Under the pieces are notes generated by a model, which ran no database searches, was not told the DNA's origin, and saw only the letters and a list, made by a program, of their open reading frames with translations. Positions 294 through 28,746 of a stretch of 41,759 bases of DNA are shown in pieces. The translations under genes and the position numbers were made by a program. The stretch spans positions 1 through 41,759 of the IMG/VR virus record IMGVR_UViG_3300036851_000445; one strand, 5' to 3'. Position 1 is the stretch's first letter. Each line of letters opens with the position of its first letter. Source of the DNA: a virus.

Positions 294-1910
294 CTAGATC
301 GCTTTATACGCGTCACGCCACCATTTTGGTATCTTTGTGTAGGTCTGTTTGTACAGGTAACCAAAGCTGGCATCCAGAATGTACACGTGACCTATGTCTG
401 TAGGTGTGCGCACCACACGACCGCCGCCCTGAATCATGTCGATTAGAGCTTGACGCTGGTACCATTCACTGGACAACTCCATTCTACGCTTGATCCAAGC
501 GTCTCCTAAGTTACCAAATGGTACTTTACAGAACAAAGCAAAGCGAGCGAGATCATCCTTTAGATCTAATCCTTCTGTAATAGAAGGTGAGATCAACAGG
601 GATGGTTTGGGATCTCCCATGAACGCTTGAATAACAGCTCCACGCTGGTCACCACTGCCTGGATTATGATGATAGATTCGATGCTTGGTTGTGTATTCAA
701 GCTCTTCAACAAGCCATTGAGCAATCTGGAAATTGCCTGTGTGTACAATGCCTGATTCGCCCTTATGCAATTCGAGCAATTCTTTGATCGTCTTGAGCAT
801 TGTCTTACGTTCGTTTTCACGATCTTCACTCTTCCAATCGACGTTCATCTTCATCTGTGGCATGTAAGTCACAGGACGATTTTCAACTGGGAATTCTGAA
901 GGCAGCGACAGGAAGGCTGCTTCACTTGGTTCAATACCTAAGTCGCGACAGAAGCCATCCTTGTCCAGAACAGTTGAGGACATAAACAAGAAGCGACGAG
1001 CTTTTGGTTCGACAATGCGACGGAATGCATATGAGCCATACAAGCGCTTAAATGTCATTGTAATCTTGTCTGAAACGAGCACGAAGTGCTGATTCAAGTA
1101 ATCAAGCTCATTGGCAATCAATTCATTGACTTCATCACGGTGATCAGTCAAAGCGCTCAGTTCTTTGAGCTTCTTGATTTCAGCCTGATTGAGGTCGCCC
1201 TTTTCAAGCAACGCTTCACATTCGTATTCAAGATCCTCGACAGCTTCAATGATCTTCGGGATGTACTTCTCTTTGATCCATTCGACGGCTTCTTTCAAAG
1301 TCTTCTTCTGCTGCCAATTGATCTTGTACTTCTTGCAGCGGAGTTCTGAGACGGTTACAGCATCGAAGCTGACTAGTTGCTCCTCTAGGTTGTGGCACTC
1401 GTCTAGGATGAGCAATTCACGTGGATCTTTGAATGTATTGGTGTACGCAAATGAAAGTAGCGCGAGCTTATAATTCAAAACAGTATTTGCCGCTTTGCGC
1501 GCCGCATTCTTGGCGAGCTTGAATGGGCATGACGGACATTCGGGCTTAACGATTGATCCAACGTCGCACGTTGTTCGTTTTAAGTTGCATGAATAATTCG
1601 ACTTTCCATAAAAGGAAGCCATGTTTACTGATGCTATTCCTCTAAAAGAGTTTTCGTACTGTTCTTGTAAAATCTTTTGAGGCGTCAAAATGAATGAATC
1701 GCCACGAACTCCAGGCTTGCGTTGACCAACGAAGTTTGAAAAGGTCAAACCAATGTTGGATTTGCCAGCCCCAACAGGAAGCTCAAGAATCATGTACTTG
1801 ATGTTTGGATTGTCCTTCCAGTTCTTTTCAAGCCACGTCAATGCCTCCACTTGGGATTTGCGCGGTGGATAATCGAAAGGCCAGAAGTCTAGAATGGATT
1901 TTGTTGTCAT
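294..1910 (-). CDS. DinG/XPD-like superfamily 2 helicase with Fe-S cluster cysteines
   Basis: Predicted ATP-dependent 5'-3' DNA helicase, 538 residues. Walker A is seen as GAGKS at residues 47-51 and a DEAH-type box as DECH at 170-173. Between them lie four cysteines (108, 115, 125, 128), the arrangement that holds the 4Fe-4S cluster in XPD/DinG/Rad3 helicases. A C-terminal motif VI region reads QGGGRVVR. T4 itself uses other helicases (Dda, UvsW, gp41), so this is an addition to the T4 core set. The likely role is unwinding of recombination or replication intermediates, or removal of R-loops. Only a weak GAG precedes the ATG at 1910. The gene follows a 315-base non-coding stretch, so it may have its own promoter. 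Confidence 0.85.
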   Translation of the reverse strand: MTTKSILDFWPFDYPPRKSQVEALTWLEKNWKDNPNIKYMILELPVGAGKSNIGLTFSNFVGQRKPGVRGDSFILTPQKILQEQYENSFRGIASVNMASFYGKSNYSCNLKRTTCDVGSIVKPECPSCPFKLAKNAARKAANTVLNYKLALLSFAYTNTFKDPRELLILDECHNLEEQLVSFDAVTVSELRCKKYKINWQQKKTLKEAVEWIKEKYIPKIIEAVEDLEYECEALLEKGDLNQAEIKKLKELSALTDHRDEVNELIANELDYLNQHFVLVSDKITMTFKRLYGSYAFRRIVEPKARRFLFMSSTVLDKDGFCRDLGIEPSEAAFLSLPSEFPVENRPVTYMPQMKMNVDWKSEDRENERKTMLKTIKELLELHKGESGIVHTGNFQIAQWLVEELEYTTKHRIYHHNPGSGDQRGAVIQAFMGDPKPSLLISPSITEGLDLKDDLARFALFCKVPFGNLGDAWIKRRMELSSEWYQRQALIDMIQGGGRVVRTPTDIGHVYILDASFGYLYKQTYTKIPKWWRDAYKAI

Positions 1911-2225: not shown

Positions 2226-2897
2226 TCACACAACGCTCATTGCGCGATCGTAGTTGTCTATTAAAATCTGATTTGGATCTGAAGTCTGAATTCTGGCTAT
2301 TGTGTTATTATTCTGAGCTGTGATTAATCTACTATACAATGGACGGTTAAGGCAACAGGCAGGAAATGAATTTCCCGTCATGATTAGTTGATGGTAATGA
2401 TGCCCATTTGTAAGAATGTTCTCTACTTCAATTTGATTCATATGATCTGAATTATCCAATACGATAATATCAATCGTTCTACCCACTAACATACTTGGAT
2501 ATGGTACACCAAATACAACTTTAGTTCCGTTACTGAACTGAACCTCGTGTGAATTGTTATTGCGCGAAGTACAATGGATACTAGCTATTGGTGTTGTTGG
2601 TATGTTGTGAAACATCTGTTCAAATTCAGTGCAATGAGCCGCCGACAAGCTGACGCTTGGTGTAAACATCAGGAACAATGAATTTGGATTAGAATCAAGA
2701 ACTTCACATATCAAATAAGCAAGTATGGCACTTGATACGCCCACCTGACGACTTTGTAGAAAAAAGATATCCGAATGACGATCCATATCATCGATCATTT
2801 CGCGTTGATGCTGATGTAACTTAAACAACACCCGTCCTACTACAGGATCACGTACTGTTAAGAAATTATCAATAAACTGTTTCTTATCTTGTATCAT
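2226..2897 (-). CDS. Degenerate terminase-like ATPase domain with C-terminal YDRAM tail
   Basis: This 223-residue protein resembles the N-terminal ATPase domain of the large terminase (T4 gp17) and has no nuclease domain. RQVGVSS (50-56) sits where gp17 has RQLGKTT, so the Walker A lysine is Val. LSAAHCTEFEQ (84-94) follows, then FSNGTKVVFG (121-130). LDNSDH (147-152) replaces the Walker B-type IDECAF, so the catalytic Glu is Asn. A coupling-like stretch LIMTGNSF (171-178) comes next. ATP hydrolysis is therefore unlikely. The last residues read DNYDRAMSVV, a tail shared with two neighbouring genes. It overlaps the end of the resolvase gene by 14 bases, so the two are translationally coupled. 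It may bind a terminase partner or DNA as an inactive decoy or regulator; this is inference. Confidence 0.6.
   Translation of the reverse strand: MIQDKKQFIDNFLTVRDPVVGRVLFKLHQHQREMIDDMDRHSDIFFLQSRQVGVSSAILAYLICEVLDSNPNSLFLMFTPSVSLSAAHCTEFEQMFHNIPTTPIASIHCTSRNNNSHEVQFSNGTKVVFGVPYPSMLVGRTIDIIVLDNSDHMNQIEVENILTNGHHYHQLIMTGNSFPACCLNRPLYSRLITAQNNNTIARIQTSDPNQILIDNYDRAMSVV
2238..2252 (-). repeat. YDRAM tail motif, copy 1
   Basis: Codes for Y-D-R-A-M, residues 216-220 of the terminase-like protein, three residues from its end. The Ala-Met codons are GCA ATG, as in the other copies. Confidence 0.7.
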
Positions 2898-3363
2898 CTA
2901 CTGATTTTCCAATCCAATATGCGTCTGTTAAATCAAACAGACCTTTCGTCTTCTTTGCACCCATGTCTTTGAAATACTGTTTTACACCTTCAGGCAAAAC
3001 TTCGTACATCTCAGGTTTCTTTGCGTTTCCCTTTCCTGTGGCATTCTTCTTAACTGTGTTAGGAGGAATGATCACAACCTTGTGTTTGAATGTATGTCTA
3101 AGCGTCACTACAAGTGTGTACTGGAGTCCAGCGAGATCTCTTGTTGCATTGCCGAACTTGGAGAAGGCCAATCCTTCTAGCGCTATTACATCTGGCTTGT
3201 GGTCTAAAACGAGACTAATAATATGAAGTGTTAAATCCCACACTCTCTCATACACATCCTTTTCGGGATCTGTTTTGTAAAGTTCTGCGTTCTTAAACGC
3301 ACCATCTTCAAAAAGAACAATACCTGTCGATGTATAACTTTGATCAATGGCTAATACTTTCAT
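2884..3363 (-). CDS. RuvC-like Holliday junction resolvase
   Basis: A 159-residue protein of the RuvC / poxvirus A22-like RNase H-fold family. The acidic residues fall where expected: D7 in AIDQSYTSTG, E63 in IALEGLAF, and D144 and D147 in FDLTDAY. It would cut four-way DNA junctions to clear branches before packaging. T4 uses the unrelated endonuclease VII (gp49) for this job, so this looks like a functional substitute. It lies between the sheath-like and terminase-like genes of an unusual operon but lacks the YDRAM tail itself. Only GGG precedes the ATG, and a CATAAGTA box ends seven bases before it, so a transcript from there would be almost leaderless. Confidence 0.8.
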   Translation of the reverse strand: MKVLAIDQSYTSTGIVLFEDGAFKNAELYKTDPEKDVYERVWDLTLHIISLVLDHKPDVIALEGLAFSKFGNATRDLAGLQYTLVVTLRHTFKHKVVIIPPNTVKKNATGKGNAKKPEMYEVLPEGVKQYFKDMGAKKTKGLFDLTDAYWIGKSVDDTR

Positions 3364-3369
3364 AGCCCA

Positions 3370-3377
3370 TACTTATG
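3370..3377 (-). promoter_or_regulatory. Late-promoter-like box CATAAGTA before the resolvase gene
   Basis: CATAAGTA differs from the T4 late consensus TATAAATA at two positions. The same eight bases occur before the gene starting at 4722. Its closeness to the ATG makes its use uncertain. Confidence 0.3.
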
Positions 3378-3399
3378 AGCTACCCAAAAGCAGGTTACC

Positions 3400-3744
3400 T
3401 TAAAAGTCTAGCACCCTCATTGCACGGTCATAATCTTCGATCGCTTGGAAACCAAATCCATTCTTACTGATTCCACCACGACAAACATAGAAGTTAACAC
3501 CATGCGCTGGCTTGATATAGACATCCACCACTAATTGATGGCTATCCACGACAGCTGGAGTATTGTTATATTTGTCACAAATCACATTGTACTCTGCTAC
3601 CGACAGATCCATGACCAAAGCGTCAAGGTATGAGGAGATATCATGTCTAATATCATCACGAACTTCCTCTGTGTTAAGCTCGAACAAGTATTGTTCTAGA
3701 ATTTCGGACAAGTCATATCTGACTGTTTCAAATAGTGGTTCCAT
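3400..3744 (-). CDS. Stand-alone tail-sheath C-terminal domain with YDRAM tail
   Basis: A 114-residue protein. Residues about 24-85 resemble the C-terminal domain of contractile tail sheath proteins (T4 gp18 family). The key stretches are NTEEVRDDIRHDISSYL (24-40), ICDKYNNTPAVVD (55-67) and VDVYIKPAHGVNF (73-85). In sheath subunits this domain joins the mesh that links neighbours. Here it stands alone, with none of the rest of a sheath. The protein ends EDYDRAMRVLDF, the tail shared with two neighbours. The ATG lies three bases after the upstream stop, so translation is likely coupled. It could be a remnant, a sheath-assembly modulator, or a minor virion part. The sheath resemblance is from memory of family motifs, not from an alignment. 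Confidence 0.6.
   Translation of the reverse strand: MEPLFETVRYDLSEILEQYLFELNTEEVRDDIRHDISSYLDALVMDLSVAEYNVICDKYNNTPAVVDSHQLVVDVYIKPAHGVNFYVCRGGISKNGFGFQAIEDYDRAMRVLDF
3418..3432 (-). repeat. YDRAM tail motif, copy 2
   Basis: Codes for Y-D-R-A-M, residues 105-109 of the sheath-like protein, five residues before its end. The codons differ from copy 1 at silent positions but keep GCA ATG. Confidence 0.7.
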
Positions 3745-3747
3745 AAA

Positions 3748-4722
3748 TTACTCCAAGAATGCCATTGCACGATCGTAATCATCTTCGACGATCTTCTTTC
3801 CACCTGGAGAATCTGATGTCAGTATTCGAAATTCTGATAGAGGTCCATCAATGCTTGGAATGTACTCACGCACATCCACAACATTTACCTCGACACCAGG
3901 CTTTACAAGCTGCTTGGTTGGACAGACACGTGGTGTGATATCAACGATATTGTTATATCGTTGTGGAATAGGATCCTTCACTGTCGTGGTAATCAACCCA
4001 CCTTTGTGATTGTGCAGTACACGAACCTCATCGTCTTCATCAAACATAGTTGGTGCCACAAGTTTAGGAATACCAGTGTGAAGTGTAGCGTTTGAGAACG
4101 TGCCACCAGTAATCTGAATTGTATGTGTATGATCAGGCTTAGGTACTTTCACCATCATCTGATCTTCACGGTGCTGATGAATCCACAAATTCATAGCAGC
4201 ATTGTATGTGTATCCCTTACCATTCGATAGATCAAGCCATTGTTGTCCATCATAGGATGGAGTTGGTGGATCAGTATTGATTGGTGCAGTAGCAGTTGGT
4301 AATCCAAGCATATCTGCAGCTTTGGACTTTGAGATTATTCCACTGGACAAACACGTTTGCACAAGCTCAAGATCTGATGTGTATTTGTTAACAGGTTTAA
4401 CAGCAGCACGAGCATCAAGTTTCTGTTGATGCTCTAACTCTTCTGTAGCTGTGACAGGTCGTGGGGCAACGATATTCATTGCTCGCTCATAATAATTCTT
4501 CATCGCGTCCGAGATCTCATGGCGAGGTGTTGCGCTAAGTTCTGACTCACATCCAATAGCAACCCACTTACGTGTTGGCGCTACGTATGTGTAGCAAAGA
4601 CCAGTGTCCGCGTTAAGCCACACATCACCAGTTTGTAATTCACCTGTTGGTTGCTTACCATCAGGGGTGAATGTTAGCTTCTTATTGACGATTGGAATCG
4701 TCACTTGTTTTTGTTCTGTCAT
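3748..4722 (-). CDS. Two-unit fibre-like protein with internal and terminal YDRAM-type motifs
   Basis: A 324-residue protein of unknown function. Each half begins with a fibre-type module: GDVWLNADTGLCYTY...W (about 32-53) and GQQWLDLSNGKGYTY...W (about 160-182). These match the W-x-D-T...Y-x-W module of the structural proteins elsewhere in this window. The first unit ends in NYYERAMNIV (76-85) and the second in DDYDRAMAFLE (314-324), so the gene looks like two tagged units fused. A Pro/Thr-rich linker lies between them. It is the first gene of an operon with the sheath-like, resolvase and terminase-like genes. A CATAAGTA box and a GAGGATAT ribosome site precede it. Confidence 0.5.
   Translation of the reverse strand: MTEQKQVTIPIVNKKLTFTPDGKQPTGELQTGDVWLNADTGLCYTYVAPTRKWVAIGCESELSATPRHEISDAMKNYYERAMNIVAPRPVTATEELEHQQKLDARAAVKPVNKYTSDLELVQTCLSSGIISKSKAADMLGLPTATAPINTDPPTPSYDGQQWLDLSNGKGYTYNAAMNLWIHQHREDQMMVKVPKPDHTHTIQITGGTFSNATLHTGIPKLVAPTMFDEDDEVRVLHNHKGGLITTTVKDPIPQRYNNIVDITPRVCPTKQLVKPGVEVNVVDVREYIPSIDGPLSEFRILTSDSPGGKKIVEDDYDRAMAFLE
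3763..3777 (-). repeat. YDRAM tail motif, copy 3
   Basis: Codes for Y-D-R-A-M, residues 316-320, four residues before the end of the two-unit protein. Confidence 0.7.
4477..4491 (-). repeat. YDRAM-type motif, internal copy (YERAM)
   Basis: Codes for Y-E-R-A-M, residues 78-82, inside the two-unit protein. It is followed by NIV, like the hydrophobic ends of the terminal copies. It marks a likely fusion point of two tagged units. Confidence 0.55.
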
Positions 4723-4744
4723 ATCGATATCCTCGCATGTGTAA

Positions 4745-4752
4745 TACTTATG
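4745..4752 (-). promoter_or_regulatory. Late-promoter-like box CATAAGTA before the YDRAM operon
   Basis: CATAAGTA lies 22 bases before the ATG at 4722, in the short gap after gp46. A start six bases downstream would give a leader of about 17 bases containing GAGGATAT. It has two mismatches to the T4 late consensus but well-placed geometry. Confidence 0.4.
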
Positions 4753-4778: not shown

Positions 4779-6899
4779 TTAACCTTCTTCGTACTTGACA
4801 TAGCTGAAACCATTCGACATTTGGATGATCATTTTGCGGTCAAAGGCACTGTCAATTTCATCTCTGTGGGAGATGATAAACATCGACAACCCTTCGTCGC
4901 GCGTCTTACGTTTCAACATTCGGGCAGCATTCTGTACACCTACACCATCAAGACCCAAATCCAGTACTTCATCTAACATACAAATGTTGATGTGATTGCT
5001 CATGCTTTGGAAGACGTCACGGAAGGCAAATGACAGTGCAACGTTCACTCTTGCTCGCTGACCTTTTGATAGGTTACCGAAGTCTAATGGCTTGCCGAAC
5101 TGTGAAATCTCAGCCGACATGTCTGGTGTGAACTCAACTGTATGGGGTAAGCCTAACTCTGTTAAGTAGTGTGCCAAACGTTGGTTCAAGTATGGAATAC
5201 TCTTGTTGAGTAATGTTTTACGCACGAAACTATCTTTCTTAGTAAGGAGCTTCAACAGGAACTTTTGGTGATCAGTAGTCGCTTGCAGTTCATTGACTAC
5301 GGACATATCCACCGGTTCAACAGTGTAAGCTTCAAGCTCTTTCAATGTATCAACGTATGGGTTAGTAGCTACTTCAAGCTCAGCAATCTTCTGCTGACAC
5401 ACTTCAACTTGACTTTTGATATCCATCAATTGTGGGGTGGTATAGTCGGCCTTGACTTCAACGCTCTGTTGCTTCAGCTCGCCAAGAGCGATGGTAACAT
5501 CGCCTAACACTTCCTGCTTTTCAGCAATGCGTGTATCAACGTCTGTGTTCTGAAGAGTTTGGAGTTGTGTCTGATACGTTCCAAGCTTGCTCTTAATATC
5601 GAGCAGTTCAGTAAAATCTGAAACAGTGATTTGTCTCTTCACTTCTGCCATCTTTGTGGTTAATACACCAACCTCCTGATTGGTGGTTTCAAGCAATGCT
5701 TCCTTCTCGGTAAGTGTAGTCTGAACTTGTTTGATCTTTTCACGTAGCTCGAGCAGTTTTTCTTCCGACTCAAATCGCTGCTTACAATATGGACACTTAG
5801 CCTCATTAAGGTGTTCAAGTTCTTGTGTGATAGTTTTACTATCTTTCGCGAGCGTCTTGATCTCTTTTTCTACGGTTTGGCGCGCACGATCGATCTCACG
5901 CAACTCAGAGGTAAGTGTGGTAAATTCCTGATTGAGAGCATGCTGTTGATCTACGTCAATGCCCTCAATCTTCTTAAGATTGGATTCAATTGTGCCAATT
6001 TCGTATTGGATTTTTCGTTTCTCAGCAGTTAGCTTTGAAATCTCTGTACGAATTTCAGTTTCCTTCGTCTGAATAGCACGAAGTTGTGAATTGATTTCAG
6101 TAGACTGTTCGATTAGAGCTTGTTGCTCCTCGACGTTGATGTTCTTGATGCGCTCTAATTTAGCACGCAACTCTTTCAGATTTCTGTCACGATCGACTCC
6201 CCAACCAACAACCCGAGACTGCATCTGTGCTAACTGTTGATTGTGTCGATCTTGCTCCTTCTTCAGCGCTTCAATCTTTGCAAGATTAGTTACCATTGAT
6301 TGCTCTGTATCCGACATCTGTTCTTTTAGAACTTCAGCCTTTTCAGAAAGAGTCTTAAGGTTGAACAACTCTTCAATCAAATCAGTTTGGTTTGTAGCTG
6401 TCGCATGACGAGAAGGTAAATCGAAGAACGCATCTAGGTCTGCTGAGAAGGTAGCAATACGAACGAATAGGTCGTAAGGAATTCCAAGAATGTTCTCAAT
6501 TTCTTTGTTGATGTCTCTCGAACCAGCAACTTCACGATCTTCTACACCACCTATTGCTATCTTGGTATAGTTACCTTCTGCACCTGCTTTACGAGCACGG
6601 GTAATTTTGTACTCAATGCCATCCTTCTCAAACACAACAACGACTTCCATGTTCTTGTTGTTGATGTTATTGATCAGTTTGTCTTTGGAGATTTTGGAAA
6701 TAGGTGTGTCGTAAAGAGCGTACGTTAAGGCATTGATAACGGTTGTTTTTCCAACGCCATTGGAACCCATGCCGCTCGTCGTATTGTCTAGGTTCTCACC
6801 TAGAATTAACGTGGTGCCAGGTCTATCCAATAGAACTATTGTCGGAACATTTCCGTACGACATGAAGTTCTTCATGCTAATCGACTTGAATTTAATCAT
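4779..6899 (-). CDS. 46: gp46, Rad50/SMC-like subunit of the recombination nuclease
   Basis: ATPase subunit that with gp47 resects DNA ends for recombination-dependent replication. Seen in order in 706 residues: Walker A GSNGVGKTT (45-53), a long coiled-coil region with a zinc hook CPYC near 370, the ABC signature LSKGQRARV near 605, Walker B ICMLDEVLDLG near 640, and a switch His in ISHRDE. It is longer than the 560-residue T4 protein, mainly in the coiled coil. It follows gp47 with a 40-base gap on the same strand, the usual pairing. The start MIKFKSISMKNFMSYG is typical of the family. Confidence 0.95.
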   Translation of the reverse strand: MIKFKSISMKNFMSYGNVPTIVLLDRPGTTLILGENLDNTTSGMGSNGVGKTTVINALTYALYDTPISKISKDKLINNINNKNMEVVVVFEKDGIEYKITRARKAGAEGNYTKIAIGGVEDREVAGSRDINKEIENILGIPYDLFVRIATFSADLDAFFDLPSRHATATNQTDLIEELFNLKTLSEKAEVLKEQMSDTEQSMVTNLAKIEALKKEQDRHNQQLAQMQSRVVGWGVDRDRNLKELRAKLERIKNINVEEQQALIEQSTEINSQLRAIQTKETEIRTEISKLTAEKRKIQYEIGTIESNLKKIEGIDVDQQHALNQEFTTLTSELREIDRARQTVEKEIKTLAKDSKTITQELEHLNEAKCPYCKQRFESEEKLLELREKIKQVQTTLTEKEALLETTNQEVGVLTTKMAEVKRQITVSDFTELLDIKSKLGTYQTQLQTLQNTDVDTRIAEKQEVLGDVTIALGELKQQSVEVKADYTTPQLMDIKSQVEVCQQKIAELEVATNPYVDTLKELEAYTVEPVDMSVVNELQATTDHQKFLLKLLTKKDSFVRKTLLNKSIPYLNQRLAHYLTELGLPHTVEFTPDMSAEISQFGKPLDFGNLSKGQRARVNVALSFAFRDVFQSMSNHINICMLDEVLDLGLDGVGVQNAARMLKRKTRDEGLSMFIISHRDEIDSAFDRKMIIQMSNGFSYVKYEEG

Positions 6900-12160: not shown

Positions 12161-13702
12161 ATGCCTGGCTCAGGATACATCAAACAAATAATGGCTGACC
12201 AAAAGGTCAAGCATTATGATCACAGTATTACTGTCGGCGAAGTTGCGGATACTAATGATCCCCAGCAACAAGGCCGCTTACGTGTATTTTGTCCAGCATT
12301 TGGTGATGCAGATTCAATGCTTACCTCTAGCATTCCGTGGTCAATTTATGGATCTCCATTTGCTGGATCAAACGAATTTGGAGCCCGTGGAGTAGGTGAA
12401 CAACAGACGGAAGGACCAGTTGCGTATGGAATGTTCAACATTCCAAAAGTAGGAACACAGGTACTTGTGGCTTGTGTGGACGGCAATCCAGCAAACCGTG
12501 TCTGGTTTGCAGCTCTCTACAAGCCATGGTCAGCTCACACACTCCCACATGGTCGATACATTACAAATGGTGCAGGTGAAGGGAAACCTGAAGGTCCATT
12601 GTCTTCATCAGAACAGCCAATCAATCCTCTTTATGACAATCAGACAGAAGCTTTTGGTGGTGGATCTGCTCCAGCCCGTCAAAGCTTCGAGTGGATTACA
12701 CGTGGATCAGATGGACAAGCAGCCTTCTTGAAGAATGAATACATTCGATCTAAGGGTGGTTCTGATGTAAGTGAAGTAGCCGATGATAGAAATGCACAAA
12801 TCACCGAAGCTGATGGTGACACAATCACAAGAAATGCTGGATACGGTAAGAGTCGTATAGAGCCATACCTAGAAGATCAGATTACCGATGGTGTTAACTG
12901 GGATCCACAGAATTACTCATGGACAACTCCTGGTTTTCACAGCATTGCTATGACAGATCGCAAAGATAACTGTCGCATGCGTTTCCGTACGACTGGTGGT
13001 TCACAAATCATCCTTGATGATACAAACGAACGAATCTATATTTCAACTGCAAAAGGCAAATCATGGATTGAGATAGACGAACAAGGTCCAATCTACATCT
13101 ATACAGAGCAAGATTTTTCAGTAAGAGCTAAAGGTGATATCAACTTCACAACGGATAAGACATTCCGGGTAAGTGCAGCTCAGGGCATTCATTTGAATTC
13201 ATCTGGAGATATCAGAGCTACTACGGCTACTAACTTGCACCTACATGCTGCTAGTGAAGTACACGTCCAGGCTGGATCAACATTACATCTGCTATCATCC
13301 AGCAACACATTCATTGAATCAGGGGCTAACTTGAATATGTTAGCTACCAGCAACGCATATTTGGAAGCAACATCAGACCTAAACCTTAAATCAGGAGCAA
13401 ATTGGAATGGTCAAGCTGGTGCAACACTAAGTCTAACAGGTGGATCACAGATCCTTGAAACAGCTCCGCAGATTCACTTGAATGGTCCAACAGCAACACC
13501 GGCAGCGACAGCATCTCCAGCTGTAGATGCTGAGAATGCATTCATATCAAGTATGATTCCAAATCAGGAGCCATTTGCACGCTCTTACACGGCGTCAGAC
13601 ACATCAGCATCGCCAGAATACGATTACAATAGCCCTGAAGTAGGTAGAGGTAGTGCAGTTCACGGAATTACACTCACAAGAAACCCTGAGTGGCACCGCT
13701 AA
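12161..13702 (+). CDS. 5: gp5-like central spike protein without a lysozyme domain
   Basis: Needle protein at the centre of the baseplate, 513 residues. An N-terminal OB-fold is seen around 17-125 (ITVGEVADTNDPQQQGRLRVF, then PKVGTQVLVACVDGNPANRVWFAAL). Residues about 318-426 are an array of short repeats such as DINFTTDKTFRV, NLHLHAASEVHVQAG and DLNLKSGANWNGQAG, typical of the triple-stranded beta-helix of gp5/VgrG spikes. T4 gp5 carries a lysozyme domain between these parts; none is visible here. A wall hydrolase may instead be supplied by the PAAR-M15 protein encoded at 34372-35523. The ATG follows the hub stop by one base, with AAGGAAA upstream. Confidence 0.85.
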   Translation: MPGSGYIKQIMADQKVKHYDHSITVGEVADTNDPQQQGRLRVFCPAFGDADSMLTSSIPWSIYGSPFAGSNEFGARGVGEQQTEGPVAYGMFNIPKVGTQVLVACVDGNPANRVWFAALYKPWSAHTLPHGRYITNGAGEGKPEGPLSSSEQPINPLYDNQTEAFGGGSAPARQSFEWITRGSDGQAAFLKNEYIRSKGGSDVSEVADDRNAQITEADGDTITRNAGYGKSRIEPYLEDQITDGVNWDPQNYSWTTPGFHSIAMTDRKDNCRMRFRTTGGSQIILDDTNERIYISTAKGKSWIEIDEQGPIYIYTEQDFSVRAKGDINFTTDKTFRVSAAQGIHLNSSGDIRATTATNLHLHAASEVHVQAGSTLHLLSSSNTFIESGANLNMLATSNAYLEATSDLNLKSGANWNGQAGATLSLTGGSQILETAPQIHLNGPTATPAATASPAVDAENAFISSMIPNQEPFARSYTASDTSASPEYDYNSPEVGRGSAVHGITLTRNPEWHR

Positions 13703-18417: not shown

Positions 18418-21400
18418 GTGGTAGATAACAGCGATTATAACAAACCCAGAATGAAACTAGACCGTCTATTGCCTGAGGTCTATCAGTCACAGACTAACCA
18501 TTCTGCCTTTGAAAATCTGTTCAATCGTTTCTTAACCAAAAACGAAACCAAAAACGTTAGCGGCTACATTGGTAGAGGCAACTCACAAGCCATTGTATCA
18601 CGTCAGATCCGTGAGCCTACAATCGATCGTCAGGCGTTCCAGCTCCAACCTATCATCAATGCAAAGGTTGGCTCCGTTGATCACATGGCTTCTTGGAAGG
18701 ACATCCTTAATGAACTTGAGCGCCTTGGTGTAGACATCGAAAGACTGCCTGTTTGGGGTAGTGTTCAGAAGTTCAACTGGGTTCCACCTATTGATATGGA
18801 TAAGTTAATCAACTACCAAGATTACTATTGGTACGATGAACTTCAGCCAAACTCTCGTCCACAGTACATTACAATCCGTAGTCGTTGTAAGCAGGCTGAA
18901 GCATATGCTAACTTCTGGGAACGACTTGTTAGCCAGTATGGCCAAACAATTGAAATTGACGATATCTTAGTATCAGCTACATCAGCACCTACTTTCACTA
19001 TCACGTCTATTACATCAAGCACTGTTATAGTCGAGAATGACATTGTTGGACAACTTACTTCTAACCAATCTTTCAACCTTGTTGGTACCACATCAAATGA
19101 TGGAATTATAACTGTTGCATCAACACCAACATATGATCCCATCACCGATCGTTCAACTATTTCAGTAGTAGAAACACTTGTGCCAGAAGGTGCAGGTGGT
19201 TCGCTTCAGCTTCGCCAGTACAATAGATTCGTGTTCAATGGCGATTATGGCCGTCTGTTCGAGCCTGGCTTCGTATTCTACGTAACAAATTCAACAAATT
19301 CTGAAATCAATAACACCTTCTTTACTGTAACTGCTCTCGACTACGATGATGAAAATACCGTCGCAACGGTCACCGTCAATGTAATGTTAACAAACAGCAC
19401 AGTGAGTGGTGATGTCTCACTTCAAGATAGCTTAACACAAGCTGAAGCTGATCGTGATTGTCAATGTACAGGAACAATTGGATGGGATCAGTCTCAATGG
19501 GATGATAATCCCGAAGATCCAATCTGGGGTGGTATTCCTCCAGGCGATCACGCTACATTTATTGCATCTATTTCAAATCCAGGACCACCATCAGGTTCCC
19601 CAATCTTTACCCCACCTGATACACCTATGTGGTACGACACTGATGGTGACGTATTGTACGAATGGGATGGTACAGAATGGAATCCAATCGTTACAAACTT
19701 CTCAGTTACACTGGCTGAAACAGATGGTGGTACACTTTGGGATCAGGCTGGTACAGACGAGTGTGGTATTCCACCTTACTCAGAGTCTGCACAACAATGG
19801 ATTGATCAGAACAAATGGCTTCACAAAACAGATGTTCCCAACTTCAACATTGCTAAGAAGGCTCAGATCCCAATCATTGAATACGATTGGGATCTTGAGT
19901 TGAATGAATGGACATTCACAGATTATACATGGAAATATCGCAAGAACGACACGATTGACTGGGCTACATCAACAGTAGCTCCTAGCTTGTTGGAGTTGAT
20001 TCCATTTACATCATACACGCAAAGTACAGCAACAATTATCCTTGATGAAAGTTATGGTGATCAGACACAGTACTTTAAGCCAGGTAAATTGTTCCGTTCA
20101 TTTGGTAACTTGGGCCTTCTTGAAGTTGCAGTGTCATATTACAAAAAGTCTGGTTCTCCTGGCTCTCCATACCAAACATACATTGAATTGACCGCTGATC
20201 CAGGTGTCCTTCCAGGCTATTTGTATCCACTATACACAGCAATGGGTGATTCGTGGATTGAGTACGATAACCATTGGGTGTTTGTAGGTTCACAAGATAC
20301 TGTGCCGGTTAATCACCAGCCAATTAACCCATTCTTAGAGGTAACAAGTGCATATACTGTTGTTGGTGACTACCAATATGCAACTGGCCCATATACTCAG
20401 GAAAATGTGGTCCTTGTGGATGCTGTTGTGGATGAATACACATTAGATGCATCTCTGCGCAATCGTGCATTGATCGGTTCCGACGATGTACGTGTGTATA
20501 TTGACGGCATCCGTCAATATGGAACATACAATGAACTAACTGAAGTTGATTTAGGAATTGGTGCAGATGAAACGCACGTTGCTGGTATCGGATTCCTTTC
20601 TGGATATTCACCTAACGCTGCCGGACAAGTTGTTCGTATTGAATTAGGTGAAGCTTCGATCCTTGACATTGGATATTCACAGATCCCAGTTAGAACTACT
20701 GAAAGCGATACAGCATTCGCTGCAGCAGTAATTGCTGGTACAGAACCCCTCACTGTCAGTTTGATCAAGTATCGCAAAGTAGAACAGATCAAGACCGCAA
20801 CAAATCAGTATCCACTATTTGACATTTATAACGCTGATGGTACATCTGCATATCGTGCAAATCCAATTTTTGCATTCGAGACAAGTCCTACTGCAACGGT
20901 ACATCCAGCAGTTGGATTGCGTCTTGTATTAACCACTTCTCCATTGCTTGATTTTGGATTCGAACAGTTCTTAATTGATGTGGACAATGGAACATTGTTC
21001 GCTTATCGTGACTACTCAAGTCAGAATCAAGATTTTTGGTTCGACACAAAGAGCCAAACACTGAAAGTTTGGGATGGCACCACGTGGGCAGATCAATTCT
21101 ACGTTGAAGATTACTATGCAACCCCTCATGTTGGCGATACACAACCAGACGAAGTATTCAGAGCTATCGAAGGCTTCTTATGGTACGATACTGTCAACGA
21201 GGTTTTGAAATCAAGTGGTGGTCCAGGCTCTCCAACAACATGGAATATTGTCACTGACGTTATTGCACAGTCTTCTGATAATACTCTAAGGACAATTTGG
21301 AGACCCGGAACCAACGATGAACGTTATGTTCCTAAGAAAGTAGACTGGCTTGCCCGTTCAGAAGCTGAATATGACTCTCAACGAGATCTCTTTATCACGG

Positions 21401-24400
21401 AGCGTGCTGAAGAGTTAGAAGGATTGGGGCAAACCCCAACAGAAGCTACTGCTCAAGCTACAACAGAATGGTATTTGAGACAGAAGAATGATCTTTCACC
21501 AACAGGTGTGTGGATTGGTGATTGGGAAATCCCAGATCCATTGTACTTCAACAACTTGCACGAGAACAGAAAGGTTGTTACATACAGAGAATTAATCACT
21601 CACTTTACAACAATCATCGACGCTCAGCCAAAAGTACCTGCTTATGTTGGTCCAAACACAAGTTCTTTCCACTTGTTGTCTATGGACTCAATTAACTACG
21701 GTCTCGGCGGTCGCATTAAAGAATTCAATGATGGATTTGATACATTCTTGTCGTCGATTTTTGTCGATACTGTCACACCACGTACTCTAATCGAATTTGC
21801 TCACGATCAATATGAAGGCGCAATCAATAATTTGATTGAAAGCTACAGACGTCAGTTGATTTCTTTGATGAGTAACACGTCGACCGATTCCTTGATTGAT
21901 TTTTCAAACTTCGCTTCTGACACAATCATTAATTCTTACGAAGAAAATGATAATGGTGCCTTTGTTTATGGTGACAGCACCACTTTCACTGATAATGAAG
22001 GATCAAACGACATTGGTATCAGGAACTGGATTGCAACACTTCCATATTTCAAGCTAGTTCATAAGACACGTCCAACCAGATTGCTAGATAGCGTCCTTAA
22101 TATTGACGCTCTTGTCCATCATGATTCACATTTGAATAGCTATCAATTCACTGATCCAATCATTGAAACACTTTCGCGCAATATCACACGCATTCCAGAT
22201 GATCGTGGTAATGTGCCTGACACATTTGGTCGCGTTTCTTCGGTACAACCACCTAATAACTATACACAGTTTGAATCTGTATATTTGTCGACGATCACAA
22301 ATCGTGCTGGTGTATACTGGTATCAGGTTCCATCTGTTGGTGACCGTGTTCTTTATCGTATGGCTGTTGTATCAGCTGGGACAATCGTGCCCCCAAGCAC
22401 TGTTCCAGACGGAACGTTGTGGGTAGATACTCGTCCTGGCTTGGGTACACTTCGTATCAAAGCCACGGACATTTCATTGAACGTAACATGGGATCCAGTA
22501 CCTGGCCTAACACCTGGTGATGAACGTCTTCACAACGGCTCAAACCCAAATGATATCACAACGGCAACGTATGCTGCATATCAGCCTGTACAAATCAACA
22601 CAGTATTGAATGACATCATCTTCAATGTTGAAACGATGTTGTTTGATAATGCTCCTGATTATGACATTCCACCATATGATTTGGAAGCATTGCCATCGAT
22701 TGATGCAAACCTATACGATACTTACCTTGAAGAAGCATTTTTGGATTATGTCTCACAGCAAGAGATTTCATCACCGTTCAAAAACGTAGATTATGTGTTC
22801 GATGATGCCTTCACGTGGAATTACAAGTATTCAACGATCGGTCTTGGACACGAGATTCTTGATACCGATGTTGAATCAGCCTCATTTACAATCGATGGCA
22901 ACTACTTAGCGACATTCAACGTTGCCGATCTTCCATTCTATATCAAGAATGGTGGGTTGAATGATGGTACCTGGACCACACTGTCCACATTGCCAACAGC
23001 TGTATATGATTCTATTGCCGATAGAACAACAGTGTACACACAAGATCGTACTGTTGTAACGTCTTCAATCGGTACAATCTATCTTGGCACATTAGCAAGC
23101 GACGTTAATACGGGCGCTGAATCTGGCGGTGACTGGAGAGACTTGTATCAGAAGGTGTACAATACTCCATATCCACATCTCGAGCCATGGAAGCTTCAAG
23201 GATACGAAAGTGAACCAGAATGGTGGACAGCAGAATTTGCTGTTCTAACAGATGCAGATATTGTAACATGGGGCAATCGTCGTTGGAAGTACGACTTCGA
23301 CTCACAAATCGGCATGTGGGAATATATTCGCACAGGAACGATTCCTCCTGGATATAATTACCCATCTGGTGTGACAAGTATCACTGGCGATCCAACCATC
23401 GATAGAAATGTCCATGGAATTCAGATTGCTGATCTTCCAGCATATAACTACTTCTCCGTTAATATCACAAACGGTGTGGTATCTGCTGATGGTGGACTCA
23501 CAAACTTCAGTCCAGATGATGTATTCCCACCATTTTGGGACTACCTTACATATTTTGGTGGTGCTCCTGCATTTCCAGATACCTTAGTACGTTCATTATT
23601 CAGCTCATATAATGGTGAAATTGTTACACCATCAGCTGATTATGCATTTGGAGATGCTGGTCCAATCGAGTGGCAGTGGAGAACTTCATCACAATTCCTA
23701 TATGATCAGATGACAATTGGTTTCAGAATGGATCCAGTTCGTTATGTTGCACACACGTTTGGTAAGGATTTCATTATCGTTGACGATCTTCAGATTGATG
23801 ACGATACGGACAATACCTTTAGCCATACCCGTACAAACTTTCACGGTGAAATTGTTGACGACAGATTGTATCAAGTGAATGGAACAAATCAGTGGTACGT
23901 TAACTACACACGTTACACTGGATTTGATACAAACTATTCTAACTTTAGAACACTGTGGACGCAGTGGTATGCACCATTAACATATCAATTCTCAGCTTTC
24001 ATTGATACACAGTCTTTGTCATTAGGTCACCGCGTAGTTCCTGTGTCGAATTTCGACTGGCAAGTGACAGCCAAGAGTTCCCCTGGTGTAACTGATCACT
24101 GGTACGATGCTTTCAGAGTCAGTGTTGTTGGTATGCCACCAGCTGTTGTTCGTTACAACAATGAATCTCAGTGGATCTTCGAAGTTAACACGAATCTTCC
24201 TATTGCACGAACAATCAACTACTATGATGTTCGTAATTATCCATTCAGAGTTGACCTTACAAACAACATTTGCTCATTGTACACATATGATGTTGTCGAT
24301 CTTGATTTCTTAGGCGGAACTATTTCCGTTGATAATGATCAATCTGCCCTGTTCAAAACAGGTAGCTCATTTGAAATCACAGACTCTATCGGTAACAATG

Positions 24401-27400
24401 GAACATACACGGTTAATACCTCTGTATACGACAGTGGTTCCAACACAACAATCATCACAATTGAAGAAGAGTTTGAGGATGGCGTAGTTCAAGGCATCAT
24501 CAAACTTGATTATAGAGATTTGCCATGGCAAACGGGCGATCTTGTGTTTATGACTTCAGATGAAACAATGGCTTCACCATTGTTGTACGATACTGAGTAT
24601 TTCATCATTCGCTTGAACGAACGTGAGTTCCGTCTTGCTGAAACATCATTGGATGCAACTGCAAATATTCCTATCGAACTGACCACAATTGGTCGTCAAC
24701 AGCAGTTTGTTGGCCAAGTTCACTCAACATTCAAAGCTCTTAATGGCGCAGCAACAAATGTAGATTGGAAGCATTACGTTCCTGATACTACAAATGTACT
24801 AACATTCACAACACCTGCAGAAATCGTTGGTGTGCAGCAGATCATCAACATCATTGATGGCTATCAGAAATACCAAAGTGAACAAGGTTGGGTTTTAACA
24901 TCAACTGCAAGTGCGCTTGATCCAAACGCAACAGAGGCACCTACAGGCTGGCAGATGGAGATCGAGAATTTCATCAATTACATCTTCAGCTTCAGAAAGA
25001 ACAGAAACCGTCCTGCTTCTAACGTTTATGAAATCTCTGTCGATACATCAACGGATATATTCACATTCATTGGACACAATGCAGACTTCATGACGGGGGC
25101 CAAAGTAACTCTTAACTCCGATACTGGGGTATTACCGGATCCACTTGTGAAGAATCTTCGTTACTACGTAATTCGTGATTCACTAACAACGTTCCGTCTT
25201 GCAGCATCACCACAAGATGCAAGAGCAGGCACTGCTATTGATATTGAACTATCAAGTGGATACGGCACGTTGTATATCTCCGCCGCTGCAACACTTCGCG
25301 ATCCAGTGGCTGTATATGAATTGAACGCATTCCGCACAGGTATTGCATTTAGACCCGAGCGTGGTATTGTATCTAACGTATTCACCGGTCCATCCGAAGA
25401 TGTCCGCTCATCACAACTTATCTTTGATCAGAATGGTGAGCCAATTCCTCGTAGTAATGCTCGTATCTTCCGTGAAGATAAACAAACACAAATCTCTGTA
25501 CCTGCAACACAAGGTATTCACTTGGGTGGATTGCACTTATACACCGACACGTACGAACACGTATTGATTTTCAACAACTACACAACTGGTGACGCATTAA
25601 TTTACGATCCATTTGTTGGATTGAATGTCACGAAGTTTGAGCTTGAATTCCAACGTCAGATCGGATTCACACAACGTCCTAACGTTGGTGGTTATTACTA
25701 TCAGACATACTACAACCAGAATCCTGAGTTGAAGCGCAACATTGAATCAAGTGTTGAAGAACTACGCAACCTGTACGATACGTATACAGCAATTGAGTCA
25801 GATCCTATGATTGTTCAAAGTCGCAAGACTCTTGGATATGAGGGATTGAAGACATATCTAAACGATTTAAACATCAATCCTAAATCCCAGTTCATTTTCT
25901 GGCGTGGAATGATTCAGCGTAAGGGTTCAGTCAATGCTATTACTGCATTTATTAACTCGCGCCGCTTCATTGATGCTAAGGTAGACGAGTTCTGGGCAGT
26001 CAAGATTGCTGATTTTGGTTCAGCAGCAGAAAAAGAATATCCAGAGTTGTATCTTACAACATCAGATGCTCGTTCGAACGATCTTCGTCTTGATTTCATC
26101 ACTGAAGATGATTTGTGCTTACCTGGCTATGCAATGAATACGTACGATCAGATGCCTTGTGGCTATGCATATCCGGAAGATGGTGAGCCAATTTTGATTG
26201 GTTCTGATGGTTTCATCCCAATTCTTGTTACAGACGAATCTCGCTGGTACAATCAGCCCGATCAGATGGCAATATTGAAAGACAATGGCGAGACAATGTA
26301 CTTCACATTGAAAACTGTCGGGTATGTTCAGATTGATTTCTTTGACATTGATAGTGGATTAGTAGGTGTTGGATCCCCTCAGCTAGATGGTACAGCTTAT
26401 GTTGAAGCGTTATCTAATAAGACAAGTTCACCAAGCACATACGTTGGTAATTTAATTGCTCCATACAGTACACCAGCTGATGGTCAGGGCATTATTGTTC
26501 GTGATTTCGACGGATTCCTAACAATTAGCACATTCTGGACTTGGGATGCAAGCAATGACATATGGGTCAATGGTGGTTACTGGGACGACTTCACAAATCG
26601 CACTACCCCTTCTCTACGTCACGGCTTCAAATCCGACGCAGTTGAGATATTATTGAACTGGTATACTCCTGGATTTAATGTTCGCTTCTATAATGGAAGC
26701 CCAGCTGGTATTCCATTCTCACCCGGCAACCAGATAACACTACCTTCAGGATATATTCCATTTGCAAGTAGTATCAAATTATTCAAGGATGGAAGACTTC
26801 TTGAGTCTGGCATCGACTATTCAGAAACAGTAAGCACTGGCTTACTTTCAAATGATGTATTCTTCCCTGTAGCTCTAGATGGAAGTGAAGAAATTCAAGT
26901 TGAATACACAACCTCTAAGTTGGTGGAAGGATTACACTATCAGAATGTCAACTCTGATGTAGTTCAATTCTTGTATCCTGAGCTAGTAACAGCCATTGCC
27001 CCTGACAGTGGTTCACCATCATTCAATTCTAACTTCCGCATCTGGGGATTGGTACAGGATGACAACTCTCAGAATCCTGCAAAGATCATTGACGTCATCG
27101 CACAGACAGTACTTACACCTGTTCAAATGTGGGATCCGGCTCGTGGAATGAACTATTACAATTCAATGCATAACGTTGATCTTGAAAACGATCGTGATCC
27201 AGCATTGTATACAAATACTCCACTTGGTGATACGCAATATGCTGCAATTGAACCTGGTGTTGGATTTAATCGAACATCTCCTTCAGAGTGGAACATTCAA
27301 CAAGTAGGAACAACGTGGTTAGATACCGCTGTAATCGACTACTTCAGATACTATGATTTGAATGCAGTGCCAGACCTTGAAACTCGCTTTGTTGGTTGGG

Positions 27401-28746
27401 GAAATCTTGCAGATTGGGCATCAATCACAGTTCGTGAATGGGTAGAATCAGATGTCACACCTGACGAGTACAATGAAATTGCTGCATTGCAGGAGAACGA
27501 CGTTTCAATTGACGAACAACTTCGCAAGTCAGGACGTGTCAATAAGAGACTGTTCAGAAAAGTAGGTACTGATTGGGTCCGTTTCCTACCAGTAATCCAG
27601 CAGTTGGATGTTGCAATTGACGGTACTCCAAACAGTGCACTTCCAACACAGTATACATTCGCTGTTGATAGTGATTTGAACTTTAATCTTGGTGGCTCAC
27701 CAACACTTGATGTTATCAGCATCTATGTTAATGGTAGATTACTGAAGACAGTGGACTATGATACAACAGTAGTTCTTACAGTTGATGAAATCAAGTATGA
27801 AGACCACCTAACATTTGTAGCAATGCCACCAACAGATCAAGAAATTATTGATGAATTTGTTGAAGCTGGAACAATGCTTCAAGATTACGAGTATACAATC
27901 ACAGATTACTATGATCAATTCGGTATTCAGAAGTTCAAGTACTATTTCTGGGTAGAAAACAAGCTCACAAAGAACAACAATAGAACATTGTCACCTGCTG
28001 AAACAGGTAATCAGTTAGTAGCCTTGCCAACACCTTATATGTTCTTCCAGAACTTAAAGCAGCCAACACGTGTTGTAGTAGATGGATACTTGTACAACAT
28101 TCCATTGCGCTTCTCACAGTCCATTATCCGCGGCTTGAGAGGTATTATCGATGCTGATCGTCGTTACATCTTACGTTACACTCGCGATTACACATTGCGT
28201 GACTCGTTAGATCACGGCAAGACAGCTCTACAGCTCAAGAATAAGCACCAAGAGTGGAAGATGATCCGTCAGAATCAAACAGGAAAGATTGATCGTTGGT
28301 TGTGGGATAGAATTACTGAGAGCATGGTTCAGTTCAAGTTGGATGATCCTACAATTCGCGTTCCGTCGTTGAATCGTGAATTGTATGATCAAACCTATGG
28401 AACAGATACGCAGTACGGACTTGGAGATGGCCAGGCATTCGCTAATGGAACACTAGCATTGGGGTGCGTCTTATTCGATCTTCAGAATCCAGAAAATGAC
28501 TTTACACCTGTCGATATTGATTTGTTCTTCGATGATAACACATTTGAAACAGCCACGGATGTTGTCAATACTATGGATTTGATCTACACATCGTTCGCTG
28601 CTGAACATGTCAATCGTATTTTCTTCTCTGTATTGCACAATGCAGCATTCTCACAGAAGGCTAAATATGCTGACATCTTTAAGACATCCATGATTGCACT
28701 TCATGGCATTCGACCATTCCAGGTCGGTGCATTATTTGATGACTAA
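18418..28746 (+). CDS. Giant 3442-residue virion protein, in the gp7 position
   Basis: A huge structural protein following gp6, where T4 has gp7 (1032 residues); a baseplate-periphery role is inferred. The GTG start is chosen because GGAG lies 11 bases upstream; the next in-frame ATG is 11 codons later. It is built of repeated modules: W-Y-D-T...L-x-x-W-D-G-T-x-W units near residues 402, 870, 920 and 1331; G-S-x-x-N-x-G-x-Y-T-V beta modules near 214, 288, 1496 and 1975; paired TG-x-x-V...Y-x-x-I-R...F-R-L-A units near 2035 and 2219; and D-G-x-x-L-x-x-x-x-D-Y units near 691, 2784 and 3100. A more helical part lies near 2407-2540 (QRKGSVNAITAF, AKVDEFWAVK). No enzyme motif was seen. Direct homology to gp7 is not shown. 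Confidence 0.7.
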   Translation: MVDNSDYNKPRMKLDRLLPEVYQSQTNHSAFENLFNRFLTKNETKNVSGYIGRGNSQAIVSRQIREPTIDRQAFQLQPIINAKVGSVDHMASWKDILNELERLGVDIERLPVWGSVQKFNWVPPIDMDKLINYQDYYWYDELQPNSRPQYITIRSRCKQAEAYANFWERLVSQYGQTIEIDDILVSATSAPTFTITSITSSTVIVENDIVGQLTSNQSFNLVGTTSNDGIITVASTPTYDPITDRSTISVVETLVPEGAGGSLQLRQYNRFVFNGDYGRLFEPGFVFYVTNSTNSEINNTFFTVTALDYDDENTVATVTVNVMLTNSTVSGDVSLQDSLTQAEADRDCQCTGTIGWDQSQWDDNPEDPIWGGIPPGDHATFIASISNPGPPSGSPIFTPPDTPMWYDTDGDVLYEWDGTEWNPIVTNFSVTLAETDGGTLWDQAGTDECGIPPYSESAQQWIDQNKWLHKTDVPNFNIAKKAQIPIIEYDWDLELNEWTFTDYTWKYRKNDTIDWATSTVAPSLLELIPFTSYTQSTATIILDESYGDQTQYFKPGKLFRSFGNLGLLEVAVSYYKKSGSPGSPYQTYIELTADPGVLPGYLYPLYTAMGDSWIEYDNHWVFVGSQDTVPVNHQPINPFLEVTSAYTVVGDYQYATGPYTQENVVLVDAVVDEYTLDASLRNRALIGSDDVRVYIDGIRQYGTYNELTEVDLGIGADETHVAGIGFLSGYSPNAAGQVVRIELGEASILDIGYSQIPVRTTESDTAFAAAVIAGTEPLTVSLIKYRKVEQIKTATNQYPLFDIYNADGTSAYRANPIFAFETSPTATVHPAVGLRLVLTTSPLLDFGFEQFLIDVDNGTLFAYRDYSSQNQDFWFDTKSQTLKVWDGTTWADQFYVEDYYATPHVGDTQPDEVFRAIEGFLWYDTVNEVLKSSGGPGSPTTWNIVTDVIAQSSDNTLRTIWRPGTNDERYVPKKVDWLARSEAEYDSQRDLFITERAEELEGLGQTPTEATAQATTEWYLRQKNDLSPTGVWIGDWEIPDPLYFNNLHENRKVVTYRELITHFTTIIDAQPKVPAYVGPNTSSFHLLSMDSINYGLGGRIKEFNDGFDTFLSSIFVDTVTPRTLIEFAHDQYEGAINNLIESYRRQLISLMSNTSTDSLIDFSNFASDTIINSYEENDNGAFVYGDSTTFTDNEGSNDIGIRNWIATLPYFKLVHKTRPTRLLDSVLNIDALVHHDSHLNSYQFTDPIIETLSRNITRIPDDRGNVPDTFGRVSSVQPPNNYTQFESVYLSTITNRAGVYWYQVPSVGDRVLYRMAVVSAGTIVPPSTVPDGTLWVDTRPGLGTLRIKATDISLNVTWDPVPGLTPGDERLHNGSNPNDITTATYAAYQPVQINTVLNDIIFNVETMLFDNAPDYDIPPYDLEALPSIDANLYDTYLEEAFLDYVSQQEISSPFKNVDYVFDDAFTWNYKYSTIGLGHEILDTDVESASFTIDGNYLATFNVADLPFYIKNGGLNDGTWTTLSTLPTAVYDSIADRTTVYTQDRTVVTSSIGTIYLGTLASDVNTGAESGGDWRDLYQKVYNTPYPHLEPWKLQGYESEPEWWTAEFAVLTDADIVTWGNRRWKYDFDSQIGMWEYIRTGTIPPGYNYPSGVTSITGDPTIDRNVHGIQIADLPAYNYFSVNITNGVVSADGGLTNFSPDDVFPPFWDYLTYFGGAPAFPDTLVRSLFSSYNGEIVTPSADYAFGDAGPIEWQWRTSSQFLYDQMTIGFRMDPVRYVAHTFGKDFIIVDDLQIDDDTDNTFSHTRTNFHGEIVDDRLYQVNGTNQWYVNYTRYTGFDTNYSNFRTLWTQWYAPLTYQFSAFIDTQSLSLGHRVVPVSNFDWQVTAKSSPGVTDHWYDAFRVSVVGMPPAVVRYNNESQWIFEVNTNLPIARTINYYDVRNYPFRVDLTNNICSLYTYDVVDLDFLGGTISVDNDQSALFKTGSSFEITDSIGNNGTYTVNTSVYDSGSNTTIITIEEEFEDGVVQGIIKLDYRDLPWQTGDLVFMTSDETMASPLLYDTEYFIIRLNEREFRLAETSLDATANIPIELTTIGRQQQFVGQVHSTFKALNGAATNVDWKHYVPDTTNVLTFTTPAEIVGVQQIINIIDGYQKYQSEQGWVLTSTASALDPNATEAPTGWQMEIENFINYIFSFRKNRNRPASNVYEISVDTSTDIFTFIGHNADFMTGAKVTLNSDTGVLPDPLVKNLRYYVIRDSLTTFRLAASPQDARAGTAIDIELSSGYGTLYISAAATLRDPVAVYELNAFRTGIAFRPERGIVSNVFTGPSEDVRSSQLIFDQNGEPIPRSNARIFREDKQTQISVPATQGIHLGGLHLYTDTYEHVLIFNNYTTGDALIYDPFVGLNVTKFELEFQRQIGFTQRPNVGGYYYQTYYNQNPELKRNIESSVEELRNLYDTYTAIESDPMIVQSRKTLGYEGLKTYLNDLNINPKSQFIFWRGMIQRKGSVNAITAFINSRRFIDAKVDEFWAVKIADFGSAAEKEYPELYLTTSDARSNDLRLDFITEDDLCLPGYAMNTYDQMPCGYAYPEDGEPILIGSDGFIPILVTDESRWYNQPDQMAILKDNGETMYFTLKTVGYVQIDFFDIDSGLVGVGSPQLDGTAYVEALSNKTSSPSTYVGNLIAPYSTPADGQGIIVRDFDGFLTISTFWTWDASNDIWVNGGYWDDFTNRTTPSLRHGFKSDAVEILLNWYTPGFNVRFYNGSPAGIPFSPGNQITLPSGYIPFASSIKLFKDGRLLESGIDYSETVSTGLLSNDVFFPVALDGSEEIQVEYTTSKLVEGLHYQNVNSDVVQFLYPELVTAIAPDSGSPSFNSNFRIWGLVQDDNSQNPAKIIDVIAQTVLTPVQMWDPARGMNYYNSMHNVDLENDRDPALYTNTPLGDTQYAAIEPGVGFNRTSPSEWNIQQVGTTWLDTAVIDYFRYYDLNAVPDLETRFVGWGNLADWASITVREWVESDVTPDEYNEIAALQENDVSIDEQLRKSGRVNKRLFRKVGTDWVRFLPVIQQLDVAIDGTPNSALPTQYTFAVDSDLNFNLGGSPTLDVISIYVNGRLLKTVDYDTTVVLTVDEIKYEDHLTFVAMPPTDQEIIDEFVEAGTMLQDYEYTITDYYDQFGIQKFKYYFWVENKLTKNNNRTLSPAETGNQLVALPTPYMFFQNLKQPTRVVVDGYLYNIPLRFSQSIIRGLRGIIDADRRYILRYTRDYTLRDSLDHGKTALQLKNKHQEWKMIRQNQTGKIDRWLWDRITESMVQFKLDDPTIRVPSLNRELYDQTYGTDTQYGLGDGQAFANGTLALGCVLFDLQNPENDFTPVDIDLFFDDNTFETATDVVNTMDLIYTSFAAEHVNRIFFSVLHNAAFSQKAKYADIFKTSMIALHGIRPFQVGALFDD

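Follow-up and report, generated by a model that had tools for sequence, protein, structure and literature searches.

Three Neighboring Genes with a Common C-Terminal Tail

The DNA analyzed here, which we call the window, is a 41.8 kb (41,759 nucleotides) IMG/VR virus contig, IMGVR_UViG_3300036851_000445, whose genes include a T4-like late sigma factor, SbcCD, a helicase, a clamp, a DNA polymerase, and baseplate genes. The peptide YDRAM, hereafter the tail, ends three of the 33 genes whose C-termini were counted, and we refer to these proteins as T1, T2, and T3; a fourth copy, YERAM, lies within T3, the largest of them. On these points the sequence bears out a preliminary description of the locus, which did not mention the untailed RuvC-like gene between T1 and T2. 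The array lies between a helicase gene and a gene for an SbcC/gp46-like protein (table 1), and no tail was found on any further plausible gene of the window.

That three C-termini of the window have YDRAM in common exceeds chance. When 33 C-termini were drawn from other phages, a 5-mer common to at least three of them turned up in 8 of 20,000 draws, and with internal segments as the control it turned up in none of 20,000. The three pairings of the T1, T2, and T3 tails rank first among all C-terminal pairs of the window with scores of 38–39, followed by a next-best pair at 30 and control segments at 27 or less. We detected no DNA likeness upstream of the tail among the three genes.

Recurrence of the Tail in Other Jumbo Phages

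The tail ends at least 28 proteins over eight uncultured jumbo-phage contigs, the window included, seven of which are shorter than 45 kb and one of which (G013) is 155 kb. Degenerate DNA scans of IMG/VR gave 65 distinct [DN]YDRAM peptides, mostly internal and unrelated; ten lie at most seven residues from a stop, and six of those ten came from four jumbo contigs in which one or two tails each were placed at protein ends in related neighborhoods. Single C-terminal matches, such as those in L048, L058, L078, L099, and L057, are probably fortuitous and were not counted. Searches that were blind to the motif and relied on SbcC and the clamp loader added three tailed contigs (G013, G014, and G015).

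The four contigs from the scans, G007 to G010, have related gene orders. In G008, SbcD and SbcC are followed by four tailed genes, RuvC, three tailed genes, one small gene, and the helicase, the tail just before RuvC having been detected only by a stop-to-stop scan, and in G009 the order is SbcC, four tailed genes, RuvC, and helicase. Tailed genes follow the clamp loader in G010 and G007, and two do so in G014, whereas the two of G015 come after SbcC; the four of G013 comprise one adjoining the clamp loader, two around SbcC and RuvC, and one elsewhere. Different, unrelated bodies occupy the same sites in different phages, and the tails are kept among phages whose SbcC proteins are merely ~50–60% identical. 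The tailed genes are accessory inserts, most of which immediately follow SbcC, RuvC, or the clamp loader, and their bodies turn over while the tail persists.

The nearest cultured relatives by SbcC are the jumbo phages XacN1 and Stenotrophomonas phage RAS14, of which XacN1 is nearest also by clamp loader and has a partly similar gene order around SbcC, but no tailed protein was found in either. The stop-to-stop scan returned 27 tails in the eight contigs, whereas 1.05 Mb of controls, among them RAS14 in full and XacN1 almost in full, had none. Altogether the tail was not found in these two phages and five other phage contigs, ~1.25 Mb in total, and in this group the motif is not at the chance frequency that the preliminary description had named as grounds for dismissing it. 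The total includes G002, a 190 kb contig with an SbcC that is 47–49% identical, in which no tail exceeded the scan threshold. The exact motif was absent from 14 records related by SbcC or sheath. No relatives emerged from tblastn searches with T3 among phage isolates, with T1 and T2 in IMG/VR, or, again among isolates, with two tailed proteins encoded elsewhere than in the window, and no relative was confirmed when GTDB contigs were searched by SbcC. The SbcC tree does not show the tailed phages as one clade. In the literature, a search for YDRAM matched words such as hydramnios, and phrase searches for similar systems gave no result.

Two further observations arose from these comparisons. The XacN1 gene that aligns to SbcC (L013:8927-12226) has ~1,100 codons and apparently includes an SbcD part, unlike the window, where SbcD and SbcC are separate genes. 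A conserved protein with an internal DYDRAMLFCRYQEYYESPY near its N-terminus is encoded in L022, L024, L030, L033, L038, L039, L044, L047, L055, L056, L059, and L071; this protein of many viral contigs represents a distinct family, unrelated to the tail.

Conservation and Form of the Tail

The tail has the consensus [ADN]-Y-[DN]-R-A-M-x-h-[LIV], followed by zero to five residues before the stop. Across 28 tails the tyrosine is present in 25 (phenylalanine in the remainder), the alanine in 27, the methionine in 26, and leucine, isoleucine, or valine at the ninth position in all 28, with aspartate at position 3 in 21 and arginine at position 4 in 20. The ninth residue is itself the end of the protein in 13 of the 28, one to five residues being added in the others. 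The 20 residues that precede the tail are 23% acidic, compared with 17% for the corresponding stretch of other genes.

It had been proposed that the peptide is under selection, on the grounds that silent sites vary while GCA-ATG is kept. The proposal stands insofar as the peptide is maintained across 28 tails with free synonymous variation. The codon argument does not, as GCA-ATG is constant among the window tails, but over the 27 tails that retain the alanine its codon is GCA in 16, GCG in 6, GCT in 4, and GCC in 1. Because synonymous codons vary widely, the alanine codon included, the constancy of GCA in the window is a local matter.

The pattern of constraint bears on whether the tail could be a C-terminal degron, by which a protease of the host or the phage would recognize early proteins that are short-lived. 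Its extreme C-terminal place, its hydrophobic end, its occurrence on probable early genes, and what we take to be a loose likeness to ssrA-type tags are as a degron would have them. The most constrained positions, however, are the inner tyrosine, alanine, and methionine, and zero to five variable residues past the conserved core are ill-suited to proteases that read the last residues, which makes a degron improbable.

In an AlphaFold model of T2 (mean pLDDT 71.5) the tail forms a helix of its own (residues 105–112) beyond the final strand, with a pLDDT of about 62–67 in this single, low-confidence model. From it we infer that the tail may be helical.

Origins of the Tailed Bodies

Several of the bodies are pared-down parts of proteins of the virion or of DNA packaging. 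T2 and one tailed protein from G010 (36% identity over 81 residues, E 1e-14) both match the C-terminal domain of tail-sheath proteins such as T4 gp18 and both reach the point at which real sheaths end; in the relatives' real sheaths this is the terminus, and it is where the linker and tail of the two modules start. The best PDB match of the T2 model is the T4 gp18 sheath (E 1.4e-3, TMq 0.60). In contrast to real sheaths, T2 lacks the other sheath domains, carries the added linker and tail, and lies outside the late structural cluster, whereas the C-terminal domain is complete in T2 and in its G010 homolog.

T1 has the ATPase-domain sequence of large terminases (T4 gp17, GpA ATPase) and consists of that part only, without the C-terminal nuclease domain. 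Compared with the large terminases of related phages, ARQTGKS has become SRQVGVS and LDE has become LDN, and the Walker A lysine and the catalytic glutamate are missing. The T1 sequence had no match in PDB, and its AlphaFold model failed (pLDDT 42) and was not used. T1 and T2 had been described as terminase-like and sheath-like; both are fragments, T1 without catalytic residues, which does not support a reading of them as working terminase and sheath proteins.

A portal-like segment is common to tailed proteins of G013 and G009, and over 25 residues the G013 copy has 64% identity with the same phage's own portal; the segment matches Pfam Portal_T4 with an E value of only 0.01. Weakly similar tryptophan-rich units occur in T3 and in tailed proteins of G008, G010, and G015. 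In G008 these units are separate small tandem genes, each with its own tail, and in T3 the YERAM copy stands at a similar distance from the first unit; T3 is therefore best read as two tandem tailed genes that were fused, and its internal YERAM is probably the relic tail of the upstream fusion partner. The remaining tailed bodies have no convincing known relatives, and a comparison with known defense-system families gave no meaningful match.

The sheath-domain pair and the portal-segment pair show that some bodies are related, as would be expected if all belonged to a single domain family and the tail were its terminal helix. This explanation, foreseen in the preliminary description as a possible refutation, is itself largely refuted, given that most bodies have no detectable similarity to each other, as that description had maintained, and that the untailed homologs of the sheath-domain pair are complete sheaths.

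Table 1. Tailed genes, tails, and neighboring features of the window, followed by three features of related contigs
Feature	Position	Strand	Evidence or remark
T1, tailed protein, 223 aa; terminase large-subunit ATPase domain	2226..2897	-	Pfam GpA_ATPase 5e-9; phrog_5989 1e-9
T1 C-terminal tail NYDRAMSVV	2229..2255	-	protein ends in IDNYDRAMSVV
T2, tailed protein, 114 aa; stand-alone tail-sheath C-terminal domain	3400..3744	-	Pfam Phage_sheath_1C 1.6e-8; phrog_10581 3.5e-18
T2 C-terminal tail DYDRAMRVL	3409..3435	-	protein ends in IEDYDRAMRVLDF
T3, tailed protein, 324 aa; two tryptophan-rich units	3748..4722	-	sequence; single-unit tailed genes in a relative
T3 C-terminal tail DYDRAMAFL	3754..3780	-	protein ends in EDDYDRAMAFLE
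T3 internal tail copy YYERAMNIV	4468..4494	-	sequence; ~25 residues past first unit, spacing as in G008 single-unit gene
T3 first tryptophan-rich unit (approximate)	4555..4629	-	sequence
T3 second tryptophan-rich unit (approximate)	4180..4278	-	local BLAST to G008 and G010 tailed units
RuvC-like Holliday junction resolvase, untailed; syntenic anchor	2884..3363	-	phrog_159 2e-34
SbcC/gp46-like recombination nuclease subunit; upstream anchor of array	4779..6899	-	
DNA helicase; downstream anchor of array	294..1910	-	phrog_2488 3e-114
CATAAGTAT upstream of T3; possible promoter element	4744..4752	-	one of only two window copies
CATAAGTAT upstream of RuvC-T1; possible promoter element	3369..3377	-	one of only two window copies
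21-codon ORF STVDQEKQSEQAYERAMGVIK of G010; remnant body or tag-only peptide	L131, about 13420-13485	+	
Small tailed protein with portal segment VDVGKMPPQRVxxYLExxK, rest of portal absent	L301:814-1101	-	
Small tailed protein with the same portal segment, rest of portal absent	L130:12258-12578	+	

Two other parts of the window were noted in passing. A T-loop-like stretch seen by eye in the gap ahead of the helicase (1911-2225) raised the question of a tRNA, and ARAGORN finds none in the window. Among the baseplate genes there is a 3442-residue open reading frame (18418-28746, plus strand), and G008 has a 3762-residue gene at the same place.

Promoters and Probable Timing of Expression

T4-type late elements (ATAAATA) precede many structural genes in the window and its relatives. 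At the sites examined no such element precedes a tailed gene, with one exception before a weak member in G007, where it lies within the coding sequence upstream. In G007, G010, and G014 the clamp loader gene that immediately precedes the tailed genes has a near-perfect sigma-70 promoter, read by eye as TTGACA/T, 16 bases, and TATAAT/TATACT. Since late elements are lacking and the clamp loader has a sigma-70 promoter, the tailed genes are likely expressed early, as judged from promoters only. The sequence CATAAGTAT has two copies in the window, each just upstream of a gene of the tailed operon (RuvC and T3), and may constitute a promoter class of its own.

The Tail as a Probable Docking Tag

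Unrelated bodies and recurrence in independent phages make a common partner the natural reading, and we propose that the tail is probably a constant docking tag to one common partner, carried by variable accessory proteins. The preliminary description had offered a common partner, location, or processing step, or else a swapped 3′ cassette; the recurrence supports a common partner, whereas a cassette is confronted with the absence of DNA likeness outside about nine codons. Under our proposal, a group of uncultured jumbo phages would fuse the tag to numerous small accessory proteins that turn over fast, are probably expressed early, and have their genes in arrays that follow SbcC, RuvC, and the clamp loader. 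The tag would consist of a helix N-cap and a two-turn amphipathic helix, Y-[DN]-R-A-M-x-h-h, to which a linker, often an acidic one, leads. Every tailed protein would dock through it to the same partner, probably a phage product, and the variable bodies, some of which are parts of sheath, terminase, and portal, would engage different targets.

Phage T4 provides two precedents, namely the capsid-targeting sequence, one short constant peptide on highly diverse small phage proteins (PMC3012670), and the clamp-binding motif, which is short and C-terminal, follows a flexible linker, occurs on unrelated proteins, and can be exchanged from one to another (PMC2988020, PMC7892883). Both show phages placing one constant short tag on several different proteins. 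The tail resembles the capsid-targeting sequence of IPI, IPII, and IPIII in being a constant peptide on diverse small proteins, and it could be a capsid-loading tag that brings variable small proteins into the prohead core, from which they would be ejected into the next host; the turnover of bodies at fixed loci would accord with this. The T4 sequence is N-terminal, however, whereas the tail is C-terminal and lies in probable early operons, and none of the tailed genes examined is preceded by a convincing late promoter. There is also no consistent protease motif ahead of the tail, as the prohead-protease site [LI]xE was seen by eye beside it in 2 of 28 linkers, although protease specificity may differ in these phages. 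Capsid loading therefore appears unlikely to us.

The tail could instead bind the sliding clamp and so tether its carriers to DNA through gp45, in the manner of T4 gp43, gp55, and gp33. It shares with their motif the C-terminal place, the linker design, and the unrelated carriers, and tailed genes come after the clamp loader or SbcC. Yet gp55 in this group has probable clamp-binding ends of canonical appearance (DDMLKF in G009, SSDILEF in G013, DDLISFDK in G015) that differ from the tail, the window DNA polymerase ends in KLMFDSMLGD, neither protein carries the tail, and the proteins that do are not known to act in replication or transcription, which together make clamp binding quite unlikely. 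On the features tested, the tail matches neither T4 system. As capsid loading and clamp binding are both more specific forms of docking, the probabilities we assign to them overlap that of the docking tag.

Several points weigh against a docking tag. Two tails are degenerate (AYDRVKRIL and AFDRANRAL), and no receptor-like gene is both common to the tailed contigs, which are partial, and absent from the controls. The scoring matrix of the scan was trained on members of the same eight contigs, so that the independent evidence consists of the zero in the controls and the contigs found blind to the motif. In addition, the motif is internal in one gene, and the 21-codon open reading frame of G010 is little more than a tail, both of which a functionless 3′ cassette could leave behind as recombination copied it between neighbors and carried it along. 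The internal copy in T3 and the tandem arrays would also suit such drift. Against it, DNA similarity is lacking outside about nine codons, synonymous codons diverge widely while the tyrosine, alanine, and methionine stay, and tails persist at SbcC identities of about 50–60%, and we regard a drifting cassette as highly improbable.

If the tail is indeed a docking tag, its partner is possibly the replication/recombination complex, which we would place first; a partner outside the classes named here comes close behind, a capsid core or store of ejected proteins is a less likely choice, and a host or phage protease is a doubtful one. A more daring variant, to which we give little credence, is that the tailed proteins are tagged decoys. 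An inactive terminase ATPase, a portal segment, and a sheath domain, stripped from the phages' own hallmark proteins and made early, would occupy host immune sensors that recognize such proteins, and the tag would gather the catch on one phage partner for sequestration or destruction. Avs1-4 recognize terminase and portal (PMC12931631). With two of the three source proteins being known Avs triggers, the decoy idea is directly testable.

One would not expect inactive fragments of terminase, portal, and sheath that are probably made early. As the tag is constant while its small carrier proteins change, it offers a handle, and its partner would show the role of a whole class of probably early genes. 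Searches for the tail can find accessory, perhaps counter-defense, genes of jumbo phages that homology searches miss.
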